A DNA stretch of 64,000 nt from Bacillota bacterium (lineage in GTDB: Bacteria; Bacillota; SHA-98; UBA4971), in the NCBI GenBank assembly GCA_024653485.1, contig JANLFY010000007.1:62001-126000 (forward strand). Direction: 5' to 3'. Positions within the stretch are counted from its first letter, which is position 1. The number at the start of each line of letters is the position of its first letter. The notes beneath the pieces were generated by a model. That model was not told the origin of the DNA. It saw only the letters and a program-made list of their open reading frames with translations, and searched no databases. Of this stretch, positions 31,208 to 38,345 are shown piece after piece. Both the position numbers and the translations under genes were made by a program.

Positions 31208-32107
31208 TCACGTTATCGTGATTTGAAGACTCAGCCTGACGCCGGTCCCGGTGTTGACCGCGGTCACGGTGTACACGCCGGGCGGCACAGGCACCCCCTC
31301 GTTCGTAGTCTGGTTCCAGACCTGCGGGAAGATCAAGTTCTCGCCGGGTGGCAGGCTGATTCTCTCAATTGCGAACGTGAAGAACCGCCCCGCCGACCAG
31401 CGCCATATCTCCCTCGTGTCGCGGGTTACGATGAAATCAAATCTCTGGCTGGACCTGTAAGTGATCGTCACGGGGCTCGTCGTGACGTTGGTCTTGCTGA
31501 GGCTCAAGCGCACTGGTTCGCCCCGGGCGTAGGTCACCCTGTTGGTCCTGAACGTGTGCCGCAACCCACCTTGCACCACGGACACCTGGTTCACCCCGGT
31601 CACCGGTGGCGGCGTCGGGGGCGGACCAGGAGGAACCGGGGGTCCCGGAGGCGTTGGGGGTGCCGGAGGAGTGGGCGGCGCAGGAGGCGTAACAGGCGGT
31701 CCAGGCGGCACGGTCGGCGGCGCAGGCGGCAGTGGACTTGGGATCACCGTCGTCGGCCTCGTCGGCACGAGCAGCACCTGCCCCACGATAATGAGGTCAG
31801 GGTTCGGTATACGGTTTATCGCCGCGAGCACGGCCACCGTGGTACCGAACCTCGCGGCGATCTCGGCTAGAGTGTCCCCGGGCTGAACGATGTACAGGCG
31901 AAATCCAACCGGCACCGTGACGGGAGGTTGGGGGGCGGGGGCGGGCGCCGGCGGTGCCCCGGGCACTGGTATCTGGAGCACCTGTCCGACGAAGATGACA
32001 TCGGGGTTGGCGATGTTGTTCGCTTGGACTATGGCCGCCACTGTTGTCCCGAACCTTCCCGCGATGAGGGTAAGGGTGTCGCCAGGCTGGACGACATACG
32101 TGATCAT
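31208..32107 (-). CDS. LysM-LysM-BsuPI protein (peptidoglycan-binding protease inhibitor-like)
   Basis: A ~299-residue protein. LysM 1 covers residues ~2-47 (YVVQPGDTLTLIAGRFG), LysM 2 ~70-115 (YIVQPGDTLAEIAARFG), a Pro-rich linker ~118-170, and a C-terminal domain ~172-299 matching the BsuPI intracellular proteinase inhibitor family (RLSLSKTN, a W-rich RWSAGRFF segment and FPQVWNQTTNEG). LysM binds glycan of peptidoglycan. There is no signal peptide: LysM begins at the Met, as in some spore coat or cortex proteins that reach the wall by engulfment or mother-cell assembly. ATG at 32107 follows GGGAGG. Divergent from the AMMECR1/alpha-2-macroglobulin pair. Confidence 0.85.
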   Translation of the reverse strand: MITYVVQPGDTLTLIAGRFGTTVAAIVQANNIANPDVIFVGQVLQIPVPGAPPAPAPAPQPPVTVPVGFRLYIVQPGDTLAEIAARFGTTVAVLAAINRIPNPDLIIVGQVLLVPTRPTTVIPSPLPPAPPTVPPGPPVTPPAPPTPPAPPTPPGPPVPPGPPPTPPPVTGVNQVSVVQGGLRHTFRTNRVTYARGEPVRLSLSKTNVTTSPVTITYRSSQRFDFIVTRDTREIWRWSAGRFFTFAIERISLPPGENLIFPQVWNQTTNEGVPVPPGVYTVTAVNTGTGVRLSLQITIT

Positions 32108-32332
32108 AGTAGTTCCCTCCCGGCGTCGTGGACCCCGAGCTGGGTCAAAGCCGCTCTGGGGCCGACAGTATCTCACAACATGTTATTCCACGCGGTGCGC
32201 GGTGTTACTTCTTCCTCTGCCATGGAACGGGCGTGCGCCCTGGCGTATCCATAAAGGAGTACACGTGAGGGAAGTCGAAGAACCAAGCTGGAGATCGCGG
32301 GTCCGACGCCTCGAGAGGGAGGACGGTGGACT

Positions 32333-33178
32333 TTGCTCAGGAGACTTCGAAACCTGCCGCGGGTCGCATGGGTCGCCGCCCTGGTCGCGGCGGCGAGCGC
32401 AGGCGGCTTTGTGTTCATGGTTTCGGGCGGTGCCCGAGGGGACGTTGCGGCCATCGGTCGAGTCCTGCATTTGATGCCGCGAGCGACCACGCCGCTGGCG
32501 ACGGTGACGGCGTCAGCCCGGTCGGCACAGCCGCCGACCGCGGCTAGCCACGGAGACATCCTCGACCGCCTCCGCGCCGCGCACACGCCAGCACTCGAAA
32601 GAGTGATCCTCGAGACAGCCCGAGCTGCCGTGGAGAGCGCGGCTGCGCAAGAGGAGGGGGCGAGCCACGGTGGAATCACCGCCTCAGGTAAGCGAGGGGA
32701 ATCCAGCGACCTCGGCGACTTGGATGGAGCGGTAGATGAGTCAGTCCTCCGTGCACCGGCGGGCGTGTTCGTTGCGCTCATACTCAACGGCAGCGTGAGG
32801 GGGTGTATGGGGACGGCTTACCCCATGGAGGCATCGCTGCTCGAGGAGGTCGCGAGCGCGGCCCGCATGGCGGCGACGTGCGACCCGCGGCGACCCCCGG
32901 TACGACCGGAGGAGGTGTCGCGTCTCGGCTACTGTGTGTCCGTAGTGGGAAGGTTGAGGAGGCACGACCCTCGAGAGGCGCTCGATCCGAGTACCCAGGG
33001 CGTCATAGTGAGGGCAGACGGCGGCCGAACGGGAGTCGTGCTGCCTGGCGAAGCCAGGACGGCCGCGTACGAGACAGCCTGGGCAATGAGAGAAGCGGGC
33101 GTTCTACCCGGCGACCACTTCGATATGCTGATCTTTGAGACGGAAAGATTCGGTGAAGCCTTGCCGTTAAGGCGATAG
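32333..33178 (+). CDS. AMMECR1-domain protein with N-terminal membrane anchor
   Basis: A 281-residue protein. Residues ~10-30 form a signal peptide or membrane anchor, ~35-130 a low-complexity linker, and ~135-281 an AMMECR1 domain with the hallmark SVRGCMG (R156-G160; usually LRGCIG). AMMECR1 proteins are normally cytoplasmic and of unclear function, often with MEMO1 and a radical SAM partner; neither is seen here. The anchor would put the domain outside the membrane. TTG start fits GGGAGGACGGTGG upstream. It ends about 20 bases before the alpha-2-macroglobulin gene, so the two are probably co-transcribed. Confidence 0.82.
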   Translation: MLRRLRNLPRVAWVAALVAAASAGGFVFMVSGGARGDVAAIGRVLHLMPRATTPLATVTASARSAQPPTAASHGDILDRLRAAHTPALERVILETARAAVESAAAQEEGASHGGITASGKRGESSDLGDLDGAVDESVLRAPAGVFVALILNGSVRGCMGTAYPMEASLLEEVASAARMAATCDPRRPPVRPEEVSRLGYCVSVVGRLRRHDPREALDPSTQGVIVRADGGRTGVVLPGEARTAAYETAWAMREAGVLPGDHFDMLIFETERFGEALPLRR

Positions 33179-33197: not shown

Positions 33198-36100
33198 ATG
33201 AGAGCCAGTTTTCCGCGCTCGACACGTTACGCGGCGGCTCTGACAATCCTGGCTGCGGTGCTTCTGGCGGTAGTTGCAAGACCACTTTCAGCCGACAGCG
33301 CCGATACGGGGTACCTTCACGTATACGTAGAGGAACGAGTCTGGGCGCCTTCCGAGCACCCATCGGTGATAGTACGTGGAAAGGGCTCGAGCAGGGTGGA
33401 CCTTGAGGTCTGGAAGTTCGACCCCGCGAAGCAGTATGAGGAGCACGGGTCGCTCAGCTCTGTCGCGGAGACTCTGCCTCGGGGCGAGGCCGTGCTCGTG
33501 AAGGAGATCACCCAGTATCCACGGCCGGAGAAGCAGGGCGAGGACTTCACGCTCGAGGTGCCGATTGCCACCGAGGGAATCGCGGGCTACGTTGTAAGAG
33601 TCAGCGACAACAAGGGTCGCGAGGACGCCACGTGGATCCTCGTGACCGACTTGGGTCTAGTTACTAAACAAGCCGATGACAAGCTCGTGGTATACTCCCA
33701 TACCTTTACCAGCGACGTTCCCTGCGAGCGTGCGCAGGTGACCGTGTTCAGCGAGGGCCGGGAAGTAGGGCGTGGCACCACAGGACATGACGGCGTATGG
33801 GTCCTGAGCACACCGGACCTTCCGAGGAATCTTACGGTAGTTGGAACGTTCGGCACAAGCTTTGCGCAGGTGACATCGTCGTACTACTGGGAAGACTCGA
33901 GGTACAAAGCATACATCTACACAGACAGACCTGTGTATCGTCCAGGCCAGAGAGTGTTCTTCAAGGGCATCCTCAGAAAGGAAATGGACGGCGAGTACGA
34001 GGTCCTCCGCGAGGAGCCGGTGACCGTGGAGGTCCGCGACGCGGTAGATGCGTGCATTTACAAGTTCGAGACCACGACGAACGGTTATGGCTCTTTCGTC
34101 GGAGAGGTGGTGCTGGGAGACGAGCCGTCCCTTGGAACCTACCGAGTGCTCGCGACGGTGAGAGGAAGCACGCACTCGGGCATGTTCAAAGTGGCGGCTT
34201 ATCGCAAGCCTGAGTACCAGGTACAGGTGAAAACGTCAAAGACCACGTATGTGGCGGGAGACGAGATCGAGGCCAAAGTGAAGGCGACTTACTATTTCGG
34301 CGCGCCGGTCCCCGGAGCGAAGGTTCGGTACGCGGTCTACTCGCAACCTCACGAGCTTCCGTACTACTTGCCGGAGGATCTAGGCTACTATCCAGAGGGT
34401 GACACGGATCTCGGTTACTACGGAGAGCTGGTGGCGTCAGGTGAGACCGTCACCGACGCGCGCGGGTCGGCGACGTTCGACGTGAAAACGGGTCCTGCGG
34501 ATACGACGCGCAGAATGTTCATCGAGGCGGTCGTGACAGATGAGAGCAGACGTGAGGTCACGGGCAGAGCCTCGGTGATAGTGGCACGGGGGTTGTTCGA
34601 CCTGAGCGTGCAGCCGGTTGCGTACGTGTTTGAGCCAGGACAGCCCGTCAGCGTGAAAGTGAGAGCCGAGACGATGGAAGGCAGGCCGCTCGCAACGCTC
34701 CTCAAGTGGCAGGCCATGCGCGAAACGTGGGAGGGCAGGAAGGCGAAGAGGTGGAAAGAAGCCTCGGGCGAGCTCCGCACAGCGGCGGACGGGAGAGGGA
34801 GTCTTGAATTCAAGCCTCGCGACGAAGGAGCGTACGTGGTTGAGGTCGTCGGCAGGGATGCTCGTGGTAACCGAATAGCGTCTGAAGCGTACGTATGGGT
34901 TGCGAGCGGGGCGGGTCGCTGGCCAAGTTACGGCGGCCCTGAGATTGAGATCGTCACCGACAAGGATGTGTATAACGTAGGCGACACGGCAAGAGTCCTT
35001 GTGAACACTGTGTTCGATGACGCGTGGGCGCTCGTGGCCGTCGAAGGGCGCGACATCACTTGGCACGAGGTGGCGCACATCGAGGGGCACACCAAGCTGT
35101 TCGAAGTGCCGGTGACGCGGCAGCACATGCCGAACGCGTTCTTCACCGTCACGGTGGTCCGCGGCAAGAGGCTTTTCTCCAACGAGAAGCCCATCTACGT
35201 GTCGACCAAGGACAACTATCTAAACGTGGTCATCATGCCCAACAAGGAGACGTACGAGCCCGGTGAGAAAGCAACGTACGTGGTCAAGACTTGCGACGCG
35301 ACGGGACGCCCTGTGCAGTCCGAGGTGTCGCTCGGAGTCGTCGATGCATCCATATATGCGATCTCGCCGGAAATCGCGCCCGACATCAAGAAGGTGTTCT
35401 ATGGATCCATCTGGAACAGGGTCGTCACGAACTACTCGTTTCCCGAATGGTACTATGGAGGCGCGGACAAGGACGGGGGATCCGCTGAGATTCGGAAGGA
35501 CTTCGAGGACACGGCGTTCTGGAACCCCACCATCATAACGGACAGGAACGGCACCGCGAAGATAGAGTTCACGATGCCCGACAATCTCACCACGTGGCGC
35601 GCGACCGCCAAGGCGCACACGATGAAGACTCAGGTGGGTTCGGCAACCCGCGACGTGGTGGCCACGAAGGACATGATCGTGAGGATCGCCACGCCCAGGT
35701 TCTTCACGTTGGGAGACAAGACGGCGGTCACGACCGTGGTACACAACTACACTGGGCGCAAGAGTGTCGCGAAAGTCGCCATGCGAGCAAAGGGGATCGC
35801 GCTCGTGGACGCCGGAGAGCGCGTGGTCGAGTTGGCTCCGATGAGCCAGAAGTCCATCGACTGGCGGGTTGAGTGCGAAGAGGTGGGAGACGCAAGCTTC
35901 GTAGCGTCCCTCCTGGACGATGACGGCCGAGTGAGGGACTCCATGGAGCAGACCGTGCCCGTGCTCGCCTTCGGAGTTCGCCACGAAGTTCACGAAGCAG
36001 GTGAGAGCGGCGACGAGAGGGTCGTGCGGTTCGACGTGCCTGAGAACGCCCTTGCGGGCACGGTGAAAGCCAAGCTGAGGCTCGCGCCCTCCATCGCGGC

Positions 36101-38345
36101 CACGGCTCTCGGGGCGCTTGAGTATCTGGCGTCCTTCCCATATGGGTGCGTGGAGCAAACCATGAACTCCTTCCTTCCCGACGTGGTCGTGTCACGCGTC
36201 ATTCGCGAGCTCGGGGCGAAAGCGTCAGGGGTGGAAAAGGACCTTCCGAAGATGGTCTCTGCGGGTCTCGCCAGGCTCTACCGCTACCAACACTTCGACG
36301 GCGGTTGGGGTTGGTGGGAATACGACGAGACGGATCCGAGGATGACGGCGTACGTGGTGTACGGCCTCGACCTTGCGCGAAAGGCCGGGTTCGACGTGGA
36401 CGAACGGGTTCTGGCTAGGGGGAAGGCTGCCCTCGCTGAGCTGATCAATGAGCCCCGCAACGTCGATGACCTGGTATACGAGCTCTTCGTCATGTCCGAG
36501 GTCGGTGCGAGAACCCTGCCCAGGCTGAATGAGATGGTCTCGAGGAGACGCGAGCTGTCCGAGTACTCGCTCGCACTCCTCGCGTTGACCCTGCGCAAAC
36601 AGGGCAGGGTGAGCGACGCCCGGCTCGTGCTGAAGGATCTGCTGGCAGCGGCGCGCGGCGACGGTCTGCGGACGTACTGGGACGCCCCGGACGGGGAAAG
36701 GCGCTGGGCGGACAACCGCGTGGAAACGACGGCTCACGCTCTGATGGCGCTGCTCGCGGTGGATCCCAAGAACGAGAGGATACCTAGCGTCGTGCGATGG
36801 CTTGCGGATGCGCGACAGGGTGTGGCGTGGTTTTCCACCAAGGATACCGCAGCAGCGGTGTTCGCACTGGCCGAGTACATCAAGCTGCGCGACGAAGTGT
36901 CGCCCGACTATACAGCGGTGGTTCGCATGAATGGAAAGGACATCGGCAGGGTGCGTTTCACCGCGAAGGACGTTTTCGAGAAAGAGGTTGAAATCGTGGT
37001 GCGCCCCACAGAGATCGTGCGCGGCGCGAACGTGCTCACGATCTCCAAGGATGAAGGGAGAGGCAGGCTATACTATGCTTTCTCGTGCGAATACCACACC
37101 GCTGCGGAGACCGTTTCGCCAGTTGCCAATGGCGTGGCGGTTGTCCGAGGCTACTACAGGCGGTTTCCCGCCCGACAGGCCGCAGGCGGGACAACAGGAG
37201 CAGTGGGCGGGGGGCTCATAGGAGGTGGCGGCGCGTCGCGGGCGCACGCCGACCACAGGGGAACAGACGTCGGCCTTGGGGACAAGACAAGTCACGTGTA
37301 TGAGCCCGTAACCGGACCCGTGAAACCCGGCGAGGAAATATACGTTCGCATAACCATCAGGGCGGACAGTCCATACACCTATGTGATCGTGGAGGATCCG
37401 CTACCGTCGGGATTCGAGGCATCAGACGAACCTGTAGATGCGTACAGCTGGGACTTTTGGTACGGCAGGAAGGAAGTGCGCGACGAAAAAGTGGCCTTCT
37501 TCAGCGGGTACCTGAGGAAAGGCGAGAACGAGATAGTGTATCCCATACGGGCGGAACGGCCCGGGACGTACAGGGTAATGCCGACTCGGGTCTGGGCGAT
37601 GTACTCCCCTGAGGTCTTTGGACAATCAGCAAGCTCGACGATATCTTGCGTTGAACCTGTCCTCGCAAGCTTCTCTACGCTTCTCAAGGATCCCGAGCGC
37701 AGCCGGAACCATAACATCACCCTGGCTGCGGCGGCGGTCGATGGTGTTGTGCTCCAGCCGGGCGAGGAGTTTTCGTTCGACCGCGTCGTGGGTCCGAGGC
37801 TCGCGGAGACAGGGTACAAGGAGGCCCGTGTAATCTCCGGAGGCCGGAGCGAACCGGGGATCGGCGGCGGGGTGTGCCAGGTGTCGACGACCCTCTACAA
37901 TCTGGCGCTGTTGGCGGGGCTGGAGATAGTGGAGCGGCATCCACACTCCAGGCCGGTGGATTACGTCCCGCCAGGGCTCGACGCGACAGTGGCGCAAGGC
38001 CAGTGCGATCTCAAGTTCCGTAACACGCTTGGCGTGCCAATCACCTTCTCGGCGCAAGTGGACGGGGGCAGGCTGGTCATGGAGGCGAGCGGGCGGCTCC
38101 TGAAGCCGCCTGAAGTCAGTGTGACCACGGAGATCCTCAAGACCGAGAGACCGAGGCTGATCGGTAGCCCGAGCGGAGCGGCTCCGGGAGGAGCGGAGGG
38201 GCCCGCGGCTTCCGTGAATGGAGGGGAAGACGGAATCCGTGTAGCCGTGTGGAGGAGTTTCAGGCTTGATGGCGAAACCACAAGAGAGCTGGTATCAGAG
38301 GACTACTACAGACCGGTGCATGCGGTGGCTTCGGCCCTGCATTAG
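33198..38345 (+). CDS. Bacterial alpha-2-macroglobulin fused to a C-terminal VanW domain
   Basis: A 1715-residue secreted protein with a signal peptide (residues ~1-33). It has a chain of macroglobulin beta domains (TDRPVYRPGQRVFFKG near residue 245; bait region toward the middle; FWNPTIITDRNGTAKIEFTMPDNLTTWR as the A2M domain), then the thioester site YGCVEQ with C984 and Q987, and the alpha/alpha barrel (FDGGWGWWEYDE). A late beta domain (VEDPLPSGFEA, ~1400) follows. Residues ~1490-1635 are a VanW domain (LQPGEEFSFDRVVGPR, GGGVCQVSTTLYNLAL). Such proteins trap proteases by covalent thioester attack. No lipobox is seen. Fusion to VanW, a cell-wall associated domain of unknown activity, is unusual. 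The usual PBP1C partner is not adjacent. Confidence 0.92.
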   Translation: MRASFPRSTRYAAALTILAAVLLAVVARPLSADSADTGYLHVYVEERVWAPSEHPSVIVRGKGSSRVDLEVWKFDPAKQYEEHGSLSSVAETLPRGEAVLVKEITQYPRPEKQGEDFTLEVPIATEGIAGYVVRVSDNKGREDATWILVTDLGLVTKQADDKLVVYSHTFTSDVPCERAQVTVFSEGREVGRGTTGHDGVWVLSTPDLPRNLTVVGTFGTSFAQVTSSYYWEDSRYKAYIYTDRPVYRPGQRVFFKGILRKEMDGEYEVLREEPVTVEVRDAVDACIYKFETTTNGYGSFVGEVVLGDEPSLGTYRVLATVRGSTHSGMFKVAAYRKPEYQVQVKTSKTTYVAGDEIEAKVKATYYFGAPVPGAKVRYAVYSQPHELPYYLPEDLGYYPEGDTDLGYYGELVASGETVTDARGSATFDVKTGPADTTRRMFIEAVVTDESRREVTGRASVIVARGLFDLSVQPVAYVFEPGQPVSVKVRAETMEGRPLATLLKWQAMRETWEGRKAKRWKEASGELRTAADGRGSLEFKPRDEGAYVVEVVGRDARGNRIASEAYVWVASGAGRWPSYGGPEIEIVTDKDVYNVGDTARVLVNTVFDDAWALVAVEGRDITWHEVAHIEGHTKLFEVPVTRQHMPNAFFTVTVVRGKRLFSNEKPIYVSTKDNYLNVVIMPNKETYEPGEKATYVVKTCDATGRPVQSEVSLGVVDASIYAISPEIAPDIKKVFYGSIWNRVVTNYSFPEWYYGGADKDGGSAEIRKDFEDTAFWNPTIITDRNGTAKIEFTMPDNLTTWRATAKAHTMKTQVGSATRDVVATKDMIVRIATPRFFTLGDKTAVTTVVHNYTGRKSVAKVAMRAKGIALVDAGERVVELAPMSQKSIDWRVECEEVGDASFVASLLDDDGRVRDSMEQTVPVLAFGVRHEVHEAGESGDERVVRFDVPENALAGTVKAKLRLAPSIAATALGALEYLASFPYGCVEQTMNSFLPDVVVSRVIRELGAKASGVEKDLPKMVSAGLARLYRYQHFDGGWGWWEYDETDPRMTAYVVYGLDLARKAGFDVDERVLARGKAALAELINEPRNVDDLVYELFVMSEVGARTLPRLNEMVSRRRELSEYSLALLALTLRKQGRVSDARLVLKDLLAAARGDGLRTYWDAPDGERRWADNRVETTAHALMALLAVDPKNERIPSVVRWLADARQGVAWFSTKDTAAAVFALAEYIKLRDEVSPDYTAVVRMNGKDIGRVRFTAKDVFEKEVEIVVRPTEIVRGANVLTISKDEGRGRLYYAFSCEYHTAAETVSPVANGVAVVRGYYRRFPARQAAGGTTGAVGGGLIGGGGASRAHADHRGTDVGLGDKTSHVYEPVTGPVKPGEEIYVRITIRADSPYTYVIVEDPLPSGFEASDEPVDAYSWDFWYGRKEVRDEKVAFFSGYLRKGENEIVYPIRAERPGTYRVMPTRVWAMYSPEVFGQSASSTISCVEPVLASFSTLLKDPERSRNHNITLAAAAVDGVVLQPGEEFSFDRVVGPRLAETGYKEARVISGGRSEPGIGGGVCQVSTTLYNLALLAGLEIVERHPHSRPVDYVPPGLDATVAQGQCDLKFRNTLGVPITFSAQVDGGRLVMEASGRLLKPPEVSVTTEILKTERPRLIGSPSGAAPGGAEGPAASVNGGEDGIRVAVWRSFRLDGETTRELVSEDYYRPVHAVASALH

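Follow-up and report, generated by a model that had tools for sequence, protein, structure and literature searches.

Known A2M and VanW systems

In bacterial alpha-2-macroglobulin (A2M), cleavage of the bait releases the thioester domain (TED) from the C-terminal macroglobulin (MG) domain, so that the thioester becomes accessible (PMC4498604). The gene pair yfhM-pbpC gave rise to the hypothesis that A2M and PBP1C act together in defence and repair (PMC4498604, PMC5764988). The Type I A2Ms of this arrangement, ECAM/YfhM and Salmonella A2M, combine bait-region, A2M, TED (with CxEQ motif) and bMG10 domains, have a peptidoglycan transpeptidase as neighbouring partner, and belong to an outer-membrane setting. 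In 2024, LdtCd4 and LdtCd5 of C. difficile revealed VanW to be a second L,D-transpeptidase family (PMC12729407, PMC11986978, PMC12274547). The catalytic triad of VanW consists of Cys, His and a small residue (PMC12729407, PMC11986978). Transpeptidase activity is on record for only two VanW proteins, some others show none, and the peptidoglycan binding of LdtCd4/5 is attributed to PG_binding_4 (PMC12729407).

These Type I domains recur at the present locus, together with a putative transpeptidase partner and a probable outer membrane, but here the partner is VanW, it resides in the same chain as the A2M, and an AMMECR1 gene lies upstream.

Gene and domain organization

The fusion gene is situated at 33198-38345 (+) of the window, which is the whole stretch of 64,000 nucleotides that was analysed, and encodes 1715 residues in one frame without interruption. 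AAGGAGGT is found upstream of its ATG at normal spacing. The N-terminus (33198-33293, +) is a hydrophobic Sec signal or signal anchor that lacks the lipobox Cys; the lipobox regular expression was negative in the fusion proteins of f1, the family of uncultured bacteria to which the host belongs, in agreement with the first-pass annotation, which had taken the A2M to be without a lipid anchor.

The domains that follow, all on the + strand, were assigned with Pfam. bMG3 (residues 149-206) is below the cut-off, and is followed by the macroglobulin domains MG2 (237-332) and bMG5 (342-458) at 33906-34571, the bait-region domain A2M_BRD (583-721) at 34944-35360 and the A2M domain PF00207 (772-861) at 35511-35780. 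The TED match (971-1071; E 3e-23) at 36108-36410 is also seen by Foldseek, in which the best matches of the A2M part are the bacterial A2M structures 4u4j, 4ziu and 4u48. Its motif reads SFPYGCVEQT, with GCVEQ at 983-987; the thioester motif CVEQ (984-987), which begins with Cys984, is encoded at 36147-36158. The C-terminal macroglobulin domain bMG10 (1364-1472) at 37287-37613, with a conserved W-x-M-Y, is supported by alignment as well. An intact thioester and intact A2M domains, as first proposed, are thus borne out. We also note a Gly-rich segment between a CUB-like part and bMG10 (residues 1322-1365, ~37161-37292) that is almost unconserved in f1, and a second Gly-rich insertion ahead of the TED in two loci (L004 and L006).

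With CXEQ in the TED and with MG, bait-region and bMG10 domains, the protein falls within Type I A2M. It lacks the lipoprotein anchor and the N-terminal anchoring MG domains, which are typical of ECAM rather than defining; in contrast to PBP1C-type A2M, where bMG3 starts at residue 490, it starts at about residue 149 in the fusion, and there is no N-terminal Big_5/bMG2 region.

A short linker (37614-37703, +) connects bMG10 to VanW, which starts ~30 residues past the last macroglobulin domain. Sequence comparison reveals that this linker is missing in unfused relatives, which have at this position a stop and then a separate VanW with its signal anchor. The VanW domain PF04294 (1503-1629; 37704-38084, +), a putative L,D-transpeptidase domain by Pfam and tree, is matched at profile positions 2-128 of 130 with an E value of 7e-51 and 171.5 bits against a cut-off of 27. 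Its motif GGGVCQVSTTLYN contains Cys1560 (37875-37877, +), the putative nucleophile. Within the host genome, 3.0 Mb in 41 contigs, A2M is encoded once and VanW domains occur three times; the two stand-alone VanW proteins have the architecture PG_binding_4-VanW-G5.

The fusion in related genomes

Among the 17 genomes of the class, the fusion was found in 13 of 13 f1 genomes from two genera; in one of them (G007) the N-terminal part is lost at a contig end. Three aligned full-length fused relatives, from other MAGs, share 61-77% protein identity. Purifying selection acts on both parts, with a pairwise dN/dS of ~0.1-0.2 for A2M and for VanW alike. The single ORF, the Pfam matches and the 13 f1 genomes establish that A2M and VanW are fused in one chain, as the first-pass annotation had read. 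It had named the reads near 37,600-37,700 as the place where an error could have joined two genes; since all 13 genomes and the aligned relatives carry the same fusion, a sequencing error at the junction is excluded. An artefact that merged two adjacent genes has practically no chance of being the explanation, for although A2M and VanW do occur as separate adjoining genes in related families, the fusion stands in one open frame throughout both genera, and four fused proteins from independent assemblies align over their full length. No description of the A2M-VanW architecture was found in the open PMC papers searched, and our survey for the pair covered Bacillota.

Omp85 (PF01103) is present in 16 of the 17 genomes of the class, the exception being G007 (320 contigs, 91% complete), and in all tested genomes of f63 and f73, two families that carry the unfused pair. 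Diderm lineages known in Bacillota include Negativicutes, Halanaerobiia and Limnochordia (PMC11448272). The fusion carriers are probably diderm Bacillota too, Omp85 being a proxy for the outer membrane rather than proof of it, and the Gram-positive setting that had been implied at first is probably wrong. The fusion protein would then probably be periplasmic.

Neighbouring genes

Upstream of the fusion lies the gene of an extracytoplasmic AMMECR1-domain protein (PF01871, E 3e-24) at 32333-33178 (+). Only 20 bases separate its stop from the A2M ATG, and the two genes probably form one operon. Wherever an f1, f3, f63 or f73 locus extends far enough, the gene immediately before A2M encodes an AMMECR1 protein with a hydrophobic N-terminus, and AMMECR1 > A2M > VanW recurs as a conserved unit (relatives L004, L005, L006, L055-L060 and L063-L071). 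A divergent LysM-LysM-BsuPI (protease-inhibitor-like) protein is encoded at 31208-32176 (-). Every f1 locus examined retains this gene next to the fusion, and none was found beside the unfused A2M/VanW pairs. No pbpC was found beside the fusion, where the neighbours are AMMECR1 and MATE genes; the pbpC operon is frequent in Type I, not universal. An operon of A2M with exported partners is also known for Type II A2M (MagD) in the mag operon of P. aeruginosa, but MagD lacks the thioester and the six genes of that operon include no VanW.

Unfused gene pairs and the origin of the fusion

In f3 (two genomes), f63 and f73, a VanW gene is located downstream of A2M on the same strand on all contigs covering the junction. 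VanW is thus adjoining or fused in 23 of 23 genomes with VanW-type A2M, counted on junction-spanning contigs (f1, 13; f3, 2; f63, 7; f73, 1); the contig of G257 stops short of the junction. CxEQ is present in every A2M of this type examined. The two genes overlap in f3 (L073). The separate VanW genes of all three families encode a hydrophobic N-terminus of their own, with an uncertain start in f73, whose assembly contains runs of N; a number of start codons in the relatives were assigned to the first Met in frame and could be misplaced. Where the start of an f63 A2M could be assessed, a lipobox is generally absent, with one possible AAAC in L055. Three frames of ~1760-1800 residues (G160, G234, G127) resembled fusions and were rejected, since in the DNA itself A2M and VanW are encoded by two distinct ORFs. 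The f2 family encodes stand-alone VanW but lacks A2M.

A tree of 49 VanW domains, 21 A2M-linked and 28 stand-alone, places all A2M-linked domains on one side of a 99/94 branch, apart from the sampled stand-alone VanW. The 12 f1 domains form their own 99/93 clade nested among the A2M-linked ones. This topology fits a single recruitment of VanW to A2M and a single fusion in f1, the order of events being read from an unrooted tree. Because AMMECR1, A2M and VanW are separate and adjacent in the three other families, the fusion appears to have joined a pre-existing pair. The data fit one fusion event in the f1 ancestor from two adjacent genes, a direction that we infer.

Partners of A2M in Bacillota

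Of 398 genomes sampled from the phylum, 67 contain PF00207, and partner types were taken from the loci examined. In 13 of 13 loci with an A2M of ~1820 residues, A2M is directly followed by a co-directional PBP1C gene, whose identity rests on Transgly, Transpeptidase and BiPBP_C matches by Pfam in four loci and on similarity in the rest. CxEQ is present in all five PBP1C-type A2Ms whose motif was read out, and the three PBP1C-type genomes tested (G337, G377, G250) have Omp85 matches. In L062 (G337), a stop codon splits the A2M gene beside PBP1C, with an 879-residue ORF just upstream; this is possibly a two-gene A2M or a sequencing error.

Nine further loci encode an A2M of ~1612-1684 residues without CxEQ, and seven of them are followed by a Memo-family gene; one genome, G277, has no adjoining Memo gene. 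The Memo-family genes beside thioester-less A2M in these other Bacillota families (L122, L124, L126, L127, L128, L130, L131) have an N-terminal extension. No Omp85 match was obtained in G277, G062 and G215, the three tested of the nine genomes. The presence of AMMECR1 with one type of A2M and Memo with another is striking, because Memo-Ammecr1 systems are mentioned in a paper on conflict systems (PMC7159879).

The 13 PBP1C loci and the VanW-type loci together indicate that thioester A2M always neighbours a peptidoglycan transpeptidase, PBP1C or VanW, in these samples. BiPBP_C was found in none of the 17 genomes of the fusion's class, where class A PBPs are present. The best reading is that a VanW L,D-transpeptidase took over the place of PBP1C as the partner of A2M in defence and repair and was fused later. 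The parallel to A2M/PBP1C drawn in the first-pass annotation holds, although it is better put as a replacement of partners, the D,D-transpeptidase PBP1C in one case and VanW in the other.

Active site of the VanW domain

Ten residues are invariant in all 49 aligned VanW domains: Cys1560, Gln1561, Thr1565, Tyr1567, His1583 (37944-37946, +), Tyr1589, Gly1593, Asp1595, Asp1604 and Asn1609. His1583 is a candidate member of the triad on the basis of this alignment. The invariant Cys/His core gives no indication that A2M-linked VanW has lost its active site. Like LdtCd4/LdtCd5, the fusion has a VanW domain that is complete and retains the invariant Cys and His. In contrast to these enzymes, the fused VanW, a putative enzyme, has no membrane anchor of its own and no PG_binding_4, which Pfam found neither in the fusion nor in the scanned unfused VanW partners; it is present in both stand-alone VanW paralogues of the host genome. 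Each genome has two to five YkuD matches, and most encode one or more additional VanW proteins, which suggests that L,D cross-linking is not exclusive to A2M-linked VanW. No solved structure is related by sequence to the VanW part. AlphaFold models of bMG10-VanW and CUB-TED-bMG10-VanW, for six sequences, gave usable A2M parts and a VanW pLDDT of ~25-60.

Proposed function

The reading that we favour, and consider reasonably probable, is a protease trap paired with a VanW L,D-transpeptidase that replaces PBP1C as the repair partner, the two having been fused once in f1. The exported Type I A2M, probably periplasmic, would be cleaved in its bait region by an invading protease, whereupon the C-terminal macroglobulin domain would let go of the thioester domain and the thioester would bind the protease covalently. 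VanW, as an L,D-transpeptidase, would cross-link existing stem peptides of the peptidoglycan close to the breach and so stand in for the repair role of PBP1C, the D,D-transpeptidase found with Type I A2M in Proteobacteria and in further diderm Bacillota. Protease trapping, transpeptidase activity, periplasmic location and joint function are each predicted here from domain content and gene context. L,D cross-links are frequently formed in the mature wall, under repair and stress, and this, together with the standing of VanW as an L,D-transpeptidase family, makes catalysis likelier than passive anchoring. The fusion suggests that trapping of an attacking protease is physically coupled to wall mending in f1.

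VanW may instead act on the peptidoglycan stems by another reaction, such as L,D-carboxypeptidase or endopeptidase activity, D-amino-acid exchange, or YkuD-like attachment of protein to the wall. The reactions of L,D-transpeptidases are varied and extend to protein attachment, and VanW proteins that are not L,D-transpeptidases exist (PMC12729407); on the other hand, no candidate substrate for attachment was identified, and the fused protein lacks a C-terminal Lys. We regard such a reaction as rather unlikely, if the least unlikely of the alternatives.

Nearly the same doubt applies to VanW as a non-catalytic peptidoglycan-binding module that merely anchors A2M to the wall. The first-pass annotation took VanW for a wall anchor in place of the lipid. 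The wall location is plausible: the fused A2M has neither the lipobox nor the N-terminal Big_5/bMG2-type anchoring domains of PBP1C-type A2M, and certain VanW proteins are without transpeptidase activity (PMC12729407). The anchor itself is less well supported than a catalytic L,D-transpeptidase, because the Cys/His core is fully conserved and PG_binding_4, the binding domain of LdtCd4/5, is missing. Moreover, the separately encoded VanW partners carry signal anchors of their own and cannot tether A2M covalently, and f63 A2M generally lacks a lipobox even though its VanW is separate, which implies that fusion to VanW is unnecessary for replacing the lipid.

Rather than trapping proteases, the A2M half might cooperate with AMMECR1 and serve the wall enzymes as a scaffold in the envelope or as a sensor of stress. 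AMMECR1 is linked as tightly as VanW, and in several other Bacillota families the loci of thioester-less A2M have a Memo gene instead. The bait segment is fairly conserved inside f1 (0.74-0.83 identity), which is unusual for a bait of broad range and counts against the trap model. Nevertheless, the fusion retains bait-region and TED domains, and the thioester is intact in all VanW-type A2Ms while it has been lost in Memo-linked A2M; a scaffold or sensor is accordingly judged improbable.

Within the favoured pairing of trap and transpeptidase, the position of VanW ~30 residues behind the C-terminal MG domain means that it adjoins the moving part of A2M. Bait cleavage could conceivably shift this domain and thereby activate or free VanW, so that the wall is reinforced at the site of protease entry. 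We put this forward as a speculative and quite unlikely refinement.

Significance

An unrelated transpeptidase family fills the partner slot of PBP1C in other lineages and is fused to the trap in f1. Such a swap for an enzyme of the same kind, followed by fusion, is strong comparative evidence that the trap and the transpeptidase belong together, and the single protein offers a testable case of coupling between a trap and a wall enzyme. The role of VanW would thereby reach past wall synthesis in C. difficile and the vancomycin-resistance clusters.
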